A stretch of DNA of 35,363 bases from Verrucomicrobia subdivision 6 bacterium. Its GTDB lineage: Bacteria; Verrucomicrobiota; Verrucomicrobiia; Methylacidiphilales; Verrucolacustridaceae. Below are positions 28,773 to 34,209 of the stretch, in pieces. Every line of letters starts with the position of its first letter. The first letter of the stretch is position 1. Position numbers and translations under genes: made by a program. The notes under the pieces were generated by a model. The model was not told where the DNA came from and ran no database searches. It was given only the letters and a program-made list of their open reading frames with translations. The stretch is taken from assembly GCA_947441075.1 (NCBI GenBank), contig CANESK010000010.1, positions 1 through 35,363 on the forward strand, read 5' to 3'.

Positions 28773-30407
<1,635 letters not shown>

Positions 30408-30419
30408 TCATTTCCTCCT

Positions 30420-30716
30420 TCAGCTCACCACGCCGAGGATATCATCCTCACGCATGATCAGCATTTTCTCGCCTTCGAGGGTAATTTCTGTCCCGCCGTA
30501 TTTACTAAACAGGACCTTGTCCCCTTTTTTAACTTCCATCGGGATGAGTTTGCCCGCGTCGTCCCGTTTTCCGGGTCCAACTTGGACTACTTTCCCCTCC
30601 TGGGGTTTTTCTTTAGCGGTATCGGGGATAATGATCCCGCCTTTTTTCACTTCCTGCTCTTCGAGAGGATGCACCAGCACCCGATCGCCGAGAGGACGGA
30701 TATTCACATTAGCCAT
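30420..30716 (-). CDS. groS: co-chaperonin GroES
   Basis: [45 protein letters not shown]. Confidence 0.99.
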
Positions 30717-30775
30717 AGCTTGGGTGAACTCCTTTCTTTGGTTTTGAGGTTTCGGTTTGTCTGAAGGATGGGCAA

Positions 30776-30789
30776 GGTCCCGAGGGACC
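30776..30789. promoter_or_regulatory. small hairpin in the dnaK-groES intergenic region
   Basis: GGTCC-CGAG-GGACC perfect stem-loop with no T-run on the minus strand. Confidence 0.4.
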
Positions 30790-30794
30790 CAGGG

Positions 30795-32762
30795 TTAACT
30801 CGGCTTTGGGCCGCCCTTCTTGTTTTTGTCAACCATCTCGAACTCGGCATCAATCACTTCCCCCTCACCCTTTTCAGGTTGGGTTCCGCGATCCGCCGTG
30901 CCCGAGTTTCCCGGTTCCGAAGTTGCTTCTTTTCCTGCGGCCGCTTTTTCCGACGCTTGCCGATAGAGATCTGAACTCACCGCCTGAACCAGCGTGTTCA
31001 GCTTTTCCGCCGTGTCTTTGATGGCGGCTTCATCATCTTTCTTCACCGCTTCTTTCACCGCGGCCGCCGCCTCCTCAATCTCTTTTTTCTTCGCCCCATC
31101 CAGCTTGTCCCCCATCTCCTTCATCATCTTCTCAGCAGCAAAAGCAGTGTTCTCCGCTGTGTTCCGCGATTCAATCTTCTCCTTCGCCTTAAGATCTTCC
31201 GCCTCGTGCTCCTTCGCTTCGCGCGTCAGCTTCTCTACCTCTTCCTTGGATAGACCGCTCGAGCCAGTAATCGAAATCTTCTGCTCTTTCCCCGATCCCA
31301 GATCCTTCGCTGAAACTTGCAGAATCCCGTTAGTATCGATGTCAAACGTCACCTCCACCTGAGGCACGCCACGCGGCGCAGGCGGAATCCCGTCCAAATG
31401 AAAGGTGCCCAGCCTCTTGTTATCCCGAGAAAGAGGACGTTCCCCCTGCAAAATCACAATCTCCACCCCCGGTTGGTTGTCCGAGTAGGTGCTAAACACA
31501 TTCGTCTTTTTCGTTGGCACTGTCGTATTGCGCGGAATCATCGGCGTCGCCACCCCACCCGCCGTTTCAATCGCCAAGGTCAAAGGAGTTACGTCGAGGA
31601 GAAGCACGTCATGGACATCACCCTTCAACACCCCCCCCTGAATCGCCGCCCCGATCGCCACCACCTCATCGGGATTCACACCCTTGTGAGGCTCTTTCCC
31701 AATTAACTTACGCGCAGTCTCAATAATCGATGGCATCCGCGTCATTCCTCCGACCAAAACCAGCTCGTCGATCTGTTTGGATGCCAAGCCTGCATCCTTC
31801 AGACAGGCGTTGACCGGCCCAATCGTCCGTTCCCTTAGTTTGTCGGTCAACTGCTCGAGCTTCGCCCGAGTCAGTTTCTTCGCGATATGCTTCGGTCCAG
31901 AAGCATCCGCCGTCACAAATGGCAAATTAATCTCGTACTCCTGAGCCGAGGATAGAGCGATTTTCGCCTTCTCTGCCTCTTCTCGGATTCTCTGCAAAGC
32001 ATCAGGCTGCCCATGCAAGTCGATCCCAGCATCCGCCTTAAACTCCGCAATAATCCAGTCCATCACCGCCATGTCCCAATCGTCTCCACCCAAATGGGTA
32101 TCCCCATTCGTCGCCTTTACTTCAAAAAGCCCGTCCCCAATATCCAAAACCGAGATATCAAAAGTCCCACCGCCCAAATCATAAACCGCAATTTTCTCAT
32201 CCTTCTTCTTATCCAGTCCGTAGGCCAAAGAGGCCGCGGTCGGCTCGTTAATAATCCGCAGAACTTCTAGCCCAGCAATTTTCCCCGCATCTTTCGTCGC
32301 CTGACGCTGACTATCGTTGAAATAAGCAGGCACCGTGATCACCGCTTGGGTGATTTTTTCTCCCAGCTTCGATTCCGCATCCGCCTTGAGTTTGGCCAAA
32401 ATAAAGGAGGAAACTTCCTCGGGCGAAAAAGATTTCTTCTCCCCCTTCACTTCCACTTCGACATGCGCATCCCCATTCTTCGCTGCCACCACTTTATAGG
32501 GCAACCGCTTCGTCTCTTCCTGCACTTCGACAAATTTGCGACCGATCAACCGCTTAACCGAAAAAATCGTGTTCTTGGGATTGGTCACCGCTTGCCGCTT
32601 CGCCGCCTGCCCAACCACCCGCTCCCCACCCTTCGTAAAAGCTACAATCGACGGAGTGGTGCGCGCTCCCTCCGAATTTTCTAGAACCACTGGTTGCCCA
32701 GCTTCCATTACCGACATACATGAGTTGGTCGTTCCTAAATCAATTCCTAGTATTTTTGCCAT
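30795..32762 (-). CDS. dnaK: molecular chaperone DnaK (Hsp70)
   Basis: [42 protein letters not shown] and full-length Hsp70 motifs. Confidence 0.99.
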
Positions 32763-32797
32763 AATATTATTCTTTAACGCAAGATACGTGCCAATTT

Positions 32798-32825
32798 AAT
32801 ATATGCACAAAGTGTTAACTGACAA
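32798..32825 (-). promoter_or_regulatory. putative sigma70-type dnaK promoter
   Basis: Minus strand TTGTCA (32825-32820), 16-nt spacer, TATATT (32803-32798), about 36 nt before the dnaK ATG. Confidence 0.5.
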
Positions 32826-32831
32826 CAGTTA
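32816..32831. promoter_or_regulatory. inverted repeat TAACTG-ACAA-CAGTTA overlapping the putative -35 of dnaK
   Basis: Perfect 6-bp arms, 4-nt spacer. Confidence 0.45.
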
Positions 32832-32850
32832 TATTTATCAAATAATTTAA

Positions 32851-32903
32851 GTGTGGGACATTCTGTCACAATAAGCTCTGTACGTGTGTGACATTTTGTC
32901 ACA
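32851..32903. promoter_or_regulatory. tandem palindromic operator-like sites between dnaK and lpxK
   Basis: GTGTGGGACATTCTGTCACA (32851-32870) and GTGTGTGACATTTTGTCACA (32884-32903): 18/20 identical, 33 bp apart. Second contains perfect TGTGACA-TTT-TGTCACA. Confidence 0.7.
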
Positions 32904-33036
32904 GCTTCTGCTGCCGCTTGGTTAAGGAATAAAGGGATCAAGAGAGAAAAATAGTATGGGGCGATTATTGAGGTTGGCAACCCGCGCGGTAACGAATTAT
33001 CTCAACCTTTGACCCTAAAATCTCCACCTTACCTTT

Positions 33037-34209
33037 ATGGCAATTAAGGCTCTCGAATCTCTCGAACAGTTTGCCACCGATGTCATTCTGGATCGTGCGG
33101 CTGGACGCCGCGCATCCCTCCTTAAACCTCTCCTTCTCTTCCTCGCTACGATTTACGCAGGCATCATGCGCTTGCGTGCCCGCTTCTACCAAGATGCTGT
33201 CTTCCGCCGATACTCGGTCGGCGTCATGGTCATCAGCGTCGGTAATCTCACCGTAGGTGGCACTGGTAAAACTCCCGTCGTCGAAAAACTTGCCCGCTCT
33301 CTGCACGAAGCAGGTCGCCGTGTCGCCATCCTCAGTCGTGGATACAAAAGCGCTCCCAAACCTCTCCTCACCCGCCTGGCGGATAAGTTTCTTCCAGGCC
33401 GGATTCCATCCCCCCCTCGCGTTGTTTCGGACGGAAAATCGGTCCTCCTGGATTCAGCCCAAGCAGGAGACGAGCCCTTCATGCTCGCCCGTAATCTCCC
33501 CGGTGTCGCCGTGCTCGTCGATTCCGACCGAGTCAAAAGCGCCCGTTACGCCATCCGCAACTATCGGTCCGACACCCTCCTTCTCGATGACGGCTTCCAG
33601 TACCTCCGCCTCGGCGATCGCTTCAACCTTCTCCTCGTCGATCGGCAGAATCCTTTCGGCAATAAGCATGTTTTGCCTAGGGGAGTTCTTCGCGAACCTC
33701 CCGATGCTCTACGCCGCGCCGATCTAATCCTCCTGACCAAATGCCTTGGAACCGACCATGCAGAGCTAGAAAAAACCATTCGCCGCCATAACCTTCACGC
33801 TCCCATTCATCCCTGCAGCCACCACCCTCTTCACTTAGAGGATGTTCTCACAGGTGAAAAACAACCGCTCTCCTTTCTCCGGGGGCTGCGTGTCGGGGCC
33901 CTCGCAGGCATAGCCGTGCCTGAAAGCTTCTTTGCCGGCCTTATCAAACTAGGAGCTGAAATCGTCTACCAGCGATCCTTTGCCGATCATCATCGCTTCT
34001 ACGCTTCGGAAATCGAAAATGCCCTTACCCGGACCCGAGCTCGTCGCGGCCTCGCCCTCATTACCACCGAAAAGGATTCCGTCCGCTTTCCTCCATTCCC
34101 CCCACGCGACATCCCCGTCCTTTTCCTTCGAGTCGAGATTTCCATGCTCGACCCAACCACAACCTTCGAGCAGACCGTCCGTGCCGCCCTCGGCATTCGT
34201 CCAACCTAA
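33037..34209 (+). CDS. lpxK: tetraacyldisaccharide 4'-kinase
   Basis: VISVGNLTVGGTGKTPVVEKLARSLHEAGRRVAILSRGYK (Walker-like GGTGKTP), DDGFQYLRL, DRQNPFGNKHVLPRGVLREP. Confidence 0.95.
   Translation: MAIKALESLEQFATDVILDRAAGRRASLLKPLLLFLATIYAGIMRLRARFYQDAVFRRYSVGVMVISVGNLTVGGTGKTPVVEKLARSLHEAGRRVAILSRGYKSAPKPLLTRLADKFLPGRIPSPPRVVSDGKSVLLDSAQAGDEPFMLARNLPGVAVLVDSDRVKSARYAIRNYRSDTLLLDDGFQYLRLGDRFNLLLVDRQNPFGNKHVLPRGVLREPPDALRRADLILLTKCLGTDHAELEKTIRRHNLHAPIHPCSHHPLHLEDVLTGEKQPLSFLRGLRVGALAGIAVPESFFAGLIKLGAEIVYQRSFADHHRFYASEIENALTRTRARRGLALITTEKDSVRFPPFPPRDIPVLFLRVEISMLDPTTTFEQTVRAALGIRPT

Follow-up and report, generated by a model that had tools for sequence, protein, structure and literature searches.

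Paired palindromes upstream of dnaK as a predicted NtrC-type enhancer of a sigma-54 promoter in Verrucomicrobiota

Within a window of 35,363 nucleotides (the whole stretch of DNA analysed) from a Verrucomicrobia subdivision 6 bacterium, we examined two palindromes in the gap between the divergent genes dnaK and lpxK (Table 1). It is highly probable, judging from comparative sequence analysis, that they constitute a paired NtrC-type enhancer of a sigma-54 promoter driving dnaK-groES-groEL, with a response regulator of the type found at locus L190 as the most likely activator. The sites, the promoter, their phasing and conservation, a two-component pair and the absence of HrcA, the usual heat-shock repressor, can all be seen in the sequences. 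Taken together, our data suggest a two-component system as the switch for the main chaperone operon across Verrucomicrobiota.

Table 1. Position of the features discussed (window coordinates unless a contig is named)
Feature	Position	Strand	Description
Distal UAS palindrome	32887-32903	(-)	TGTGACA-AAA-TGTCACA on the minus strand; starts -141 from dnaK ATG
Proximal UAS palindrome	32854-32870	(-)	TGTGACA-GAA-TGTCCCA on the minus strand; starts -108 from dnaK ATG
Possible sigma-70-type promoter	32798-32825	(-)	TTGTCA-16-TATATT, 10/12; tentative; just upstream of the sigma-54 box
Sigma-54 -24/-12 promoter	32793-32779	(-)	TGGCACG-TATC-TTGC; fits the consensus at every fixed position
dnaK	30795-32762	(-)	655 aa; first gene of the putatively controlled operon
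groES	30420-30716	(-)	98 aa; 78 bp after dnaK
groEL	28773-30404	(-)	543 aa; 15 bp after groES
lpxK	33037-34209	(+)	Divergent neighbour; outside the conserved unit
Candidate regulator L035/L190	contig C66, 4401-5771	(-)	456 aa; REC-AAA+-Fis; Response_reg, Sigma54_activat, HTH_8
L034	contig C8		474-aa response regulator; adjoins an aroF-like gene

The original prediction had described two near-identical 17-bp palindromes in this gap, and re-reading of the sequence together with shuffle and genome scans confirmed them where they had been placed. They read TGGGACATTCTGTCACA (32854-32870) and TGTGACATTTTGTCACA (32887-32903), start to start 33 bp apart, and lie 92-141 bp from the dnaK ATG (32762) and at least 134 bp from lpxK (33037), distances that the coordinates bear out as claimed. 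Sequences within three mismatches of TGTGACANNNTGTCACA were expected 0.53 times per window in shuffles, while the two palindromes show 0 and 1 mismatch. A genome scan, proposed alongside the prediction, returned the perfect copy once in the 1.73-Mb draft genome; at up to two mismatches it returned both palindromes and one two-mismatch site on another contig, and a reversed control pattern gave 0. The two palindromes are real and not a product of chance.

Sigma-54 promoters are recognised by a GG at -24 that 10 bp separate from a GC at -12, their consensus being TGGCACG-N4-TTGC. The minus-strand sequence TGGCACGTATCTTGC at 32793-32779 has this GG-N10-GC arrangement, the sole one on the dnaK-facing strand of the 274-bp intergenic region, whose minus strand terminates in ...TTAAATTGGCACGTATCTTGCGTTAAAGAATAATATT-ATG(dnaK). 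This box, which the original prediction had missed, begins at -31 from the dnaK ATG, with 77 bp between its start and that of the proximal palindrome and 110 bp in the case of the distal one. NtrC-type activators typically have upstream activating sequences made of palindromes some 80-150 bp upstream, mostly as pairs in phase on the helix, and the two phased palindromes found here have this layout of a bacterial enhancer. In glnA of E. coli K-12, measured in the same way, the NtrC sites lie at -221 and -189 from the ATG and the sigma-54 promoter at -99; its sites are thus 32 bp apart with 90 bp to the promoter TGGCACAGATTTCGC (glnAp2), compared with 33 and 77 bp at dnaK here. The E. coli NtrC box, TGCACCAnnnTGGTGCA, shares the 17-bp architecture with a 3-bp centre (PMC8743547). 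The half-sites differ, however, being TGNGNCA here and TGCACCA for E. coli NtrC, as do the targets, which are nitrogen genes in E. coli and dnaK-groES-groEL here. The NtrC box itself (conserved GCAnnA/TnnTGC) does not describe our sites, position 4 being G (96%) and not A, and the palindrome would appear to have the architecture of an NtrC box with another specificity.

Conservation was assessed at three depths. In the order, we compared 30 dnaK upstream regions, one from the window and the others from 29 related genomes. All 30 contain a palindrome scoring at least 10 (shuffles 0.8%), a figure that is partly circular because these same sites supplied the palindrome matrix. GG-N10-GC follows the palindrome in every one of these regions, starting 26-31 nt before the ATG in 28. 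When eleven dnaK upstream regions of the genus were aligned, the sigma-54 box proved to be the most conserved block; ten of them show the paired palindromes clearly, and in the eleventh (L243) these are weaker or displaced. The wider sample comprised 46 named records of Verrucomicrobiota and Lentisphaerae, one of them (L077) a duplicate of a member of the order. A palindrome score of at least 10 was reached in 37 of the 46 as against 0 of 33 records from other phyla (shuffles 0.9%), and a score of at least 13 in 25 (shuffles 0.3%); the remaining nine have no palindrome above the cut-off. A sigma-54 score of at least 10 after the palindrome, using a matrix approximated from the published consensus, was found in 35/46 compared with 1/32 for other phyla.

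From these sites we derive the consensus TGNGNCA-N3-TGNCNCA, or in full T-G-n-G-(A/T/C)-C-A-WWW-T-G-(T/A/G)-C-n-C-A. The second palindrome is weak in several lineages. The start-to-start distances from the best site to the second best cluster in three groups, 21-23, 32-33 and 40-44 bp (Rayleigh p about 1e-7 to 1e-12, a descriptive value that ignores relatedness). These groups belong to different lineages, in support of helical phasing and not of one inherited spacing. The 33-bp phased spacing claimed at the outset holds in the form of spacings near multiples of the helical repeat, and alignment with relatives, also proposed at that time, recovered the palindromes before dnaK. The idea of an unrecognised regulator of the chaperone operon is likewise supported, by a regulatory element conserved across relatives.

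The element appears to have few targets. Palindrome and promoter combined occur in 15 of 62 order genomes, once in each and at dnaK in 14, with 0 in controls. The strict form, TGNGNCA-N3-TGNCNCA, is present in one to three copies per genome in four genus members, almost all at dnaK, which led us to reject a broad regulon. In the window's genome the third copy of this motif (968-984) has no sigma-54 promoter close by. Additional strict matches fetched from Akkermansia genomes have no sigma-54 promoter nearby. From its distribution, the regulon in the genus seems to be about one operon.

As to the activator, two full-length sigma-54 activators are encoded in the window's genome, L035/L190 and L034. 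The gene for L190 adjoins one for a PAS-HisKA-HATPase histidine kinase, and two Akkermansia drafts (G063 and G064) that carry the dnaK element (L105, L106) encode exactly one full-length activator each, which belongs to the L190 clade; members of family f8 also fall in this clade. With an L190-clade profile we searched 21 further verrucomicrobial genomes, among them an A. muciniphila genome already in the profile, and 19 have one clear ortholog (597-794 bits, next activators at most 472 bits). The conserved candidate has a REC domain, a GAFTGA/GSFTGA loop and HTH_8. Its recognition helix reads LG(I/V/M)SRRTL(H/Q)R in 18 of the 19 orthologs, the remaining one (L223, IGMSRRTLHR) differing in the first residue alone, and an adjacent kinase with HE(I/L)GNPLN was recognised for 11 of the 19. 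The nearest solved proteins are NtrC-family activators, including ZraR and NtrC; E. coli NtrC shares the REC-AAA+-Fis architecture and the place beside a PAS histidine kinase. Judged by co-occurrence, as the sole full-length activator in two site-bearing Akkermansia genomes and with orthologs in 19 of 21 further genomes, the L190-type response regulator is the likely activator of the dnaK enhancer. The dnaK site also occurs, with no clear L190 ortholog, in a Udaeobacter record (L071) and in one from Lentisphaerae (L122). RpoN is present in 51/60 relatives and in 16/20 members of the genus; none was found in the window's 91%-complete draft genome, which is most simply an assembly gap. We also observed that the kinase-regulator pair lies near a gene for a gpmI-type phosphoglycerate mutase in the window's genus and in Akkermansia (L190-L192, L195), and that in the genus a gene for a CorA-type transporter adjoins the kinase gene.

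The same sigma-54 enhancer might instead answer to a different activator, for example L034, a complete REC-AAA+-Fis activator in the genus with relatives across the order. We judge this unlikely: its clade was not found in the site-bearing Akkermansia genomes, and the f8-family (Methylacidiphilaceae-like) genomes, all of them keeping the site, seem to have a missing or altered version of the protein's C-terminal Fis-type helix. A more radical alternative is that the palindromes bind a repressor or activator of sigma-70-type transcription and that the sigma-54 box is incidental. A sigma-70-like promoter does lie between the palindromes and the sigma-54 box, TGTGA...TCACA resembles a CRP operator, and the perfect copy fits the GlnR/TnrA consensus. 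Yet the sites begin at a distance that suits an enhancer, 77-110 bp before the sigma-54 promoter, and the box is conserved together with them. Nor do the individual operators agree. CRP sites have 6 bp between TGTGA and TCACA, compared with 7 in our palindromes, and we reject a CRP-like operator. The fit to GlnR/TnrA (TGTNANAWWWTNTNACA) that the original prediction had noted did not survive comparison, given that TGTNANA needs positions 3 and 5, which vary across relatives, while positions 2, 4, 6 and 7 are fixed (TGnGnCA). CIRCE/HrcA is also rejected as an identity; the earlier observation that dnaK lacks a CIRCE element holds, no TTAGCACTC-N9-GAGTGCTAA being present in the 79 other dnaK upstream regions scanned and HrcA being absent from all 60 related genomes. 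The absence of HrcA from Verrucomicrobia has been reported before (PMC4989314). We therefore consider an operator of this kind very improbable. None of 40 genomes has an RpoH (sigma-32) above the TIGR02392 cut-off; shorter RpoD-like sigma factors exist in the genomes searched, and given these, another stress factor of the sigma-70 type is possible.

The position of the palindromes between divergent lpxK and dnaK in this genus had raised the idea that they co-regulate lipid A synthesis and the chaperones, and to this we attach hardly any probability. Among the loci examined, lpxK lies beside dnaK solely in the window's genus, and not even there in member G002 (L007); at that locus and in the other families examined lpxK is located away from dnaK while the sites persist. 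The lpxK-facing strand of the intergenic region, moreover, offers no convincing sigma-54 promoter. With lpxK adjoining dnaK in this genus alone and the element remaining at dnaK elsewhere, we assign the site to dnaK-groES-groEL, and the proposed link to lpxK was not upheld.

Returning to the enhancer and its sigma-54 promoter, canonical spacing applied to the 32793-32779 box predicts that transcription begins near 32767, leaving 5 nt ahead of the dnaK ATG; for most of the order the corresponding figure is 0-6 nt. The stress transcript would accordingly have no leader, or almost none. In several relatives, purines resembling a Shine-Dalgarno sequence lie between the -12 box and the start codon; such a transcript would lack them, which implies a second, upstream promoter. 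The sigma-70-like promoter, which varies in the genus alignment, could supply the normal dnaK leader; both forms of leader are predictions only. With the sigma-54 box it forms a possible tandem promoter, comparable to that of Chlamydia hrcA-grpE-dnaK.

In the mechanism that we infer, a stress signal, heat or misfolded protein, would cause the L190-type response regulator of the kinase pair to be phosphorylated. Its dimers would bind both in-phase palindromes and assemble into a hexamer, and this NtrC-family activator would then loop onto the sigma-54 RNA polymerase waiting at 32793-32779, where ATP hydrolysis would open the promoter and induce transcription of dnaK-groES-groEL. In Chlamydia trachomatis, from a related phylum group, hrcA-grpE-dnaK has a tandem sigma66-sigma54 promoter (PMC8762339), so that a sigma-54 promoter serves the dnaK operon as here, and the pair CtcB/CtcC is alike in type, i.e. 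NtrC-like. The activator CtcC is without a DNA-binding domain (PMC7482065), however, whereas our candidate has HTH_8, and Chlamydia has HrcA/CIRCE, which is absent here. HrcA-CIRCE also places an inverted repeat before dnaK/groE, but with another sequence, distance and mechanism. Sigma-54 promoters have further been predicted for DnaK, GroEL and GrpE genes in Planctomycetota and Bacteroidota; the part of that work describing the chaperone cluster names these two phyla, with Verrucomicrobiota not among them, and proposes neither an enhancer site nor an activator (PMC12316311).

Enhancer, promoter and type of activator are textbook components, and sigma-54 control of chaperones is known in Chlamydia and, from the cluster just described, predicted in Planctomycetota and Bacteroidota. 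What appears to be new is an element that spans the phylum, with its consensus and a nearly exclusive target, together with the candidate two-component pair. The system was not reported in the literature we covered on Verrucomicrobia sigma-54/dnaK, HrcA/CIRCE, Akkermansia RpoN, and Methylacidiphilum RpoN/chaperones, a search that most subscription journals lay outside, and this literature contained no description of general chaperone control in Verrucomicrobiota, a phylum that includes Akkermansia, acid methanotrophs and abundant soil lineages. Our analysis offers a concrete promoter, an enhancer and a candidate two-component system for a phylum without HrcA and, in the genomes examined, without RpoH of the proteobacterial type, and extends sigma-54 chaperone control by a defined enhancer and a candidate activator. 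More tentatively, and as a scenario that we would not yet favour, HrcA/RpoH control may have given way in Verrucomicrobiota to a dedicated NtrC-like switch, built on a two-component system and sigma-54 and almost exclusive to dnaK(-groES-groEL). In the order, the stress mRNA (start 0-6 nt before the ATG) would then be leaderless or nearly so and the sigma-70 transcript would carry the ribosome site, and the pair could represent the ancestral state from which chlamydial CtcB/CtcC arose by loss of the DNA-binding domain.

Some further features of the locus deserve mention. No dnaK was found in nine drafts of the genus (G001, G005-G007, G013, G014, G018-G020), one of them listed as 96% complete; all four of these that were examined for GrpE (G001, G005, G006 and G007) have it, which makes gaps in the assemblies the probable explanation. 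Rfam contains no structured RNA matching the dnaK-lpxK region, and no terminators were found at 32700-33100. In the dnaK-groES gap (30761-30796, minus strand) there is a hairpin, GGTCCC-TC-GGGACC, lacking a T-run, at which the transcript might be processed or partially terminated. Between enhancer and promoter, an A+T-rich TTGATTATCA-like segment recurs in one or two families (L028, L032, L247-L250) and is a possible DNA-bending (IHF/HU) site.
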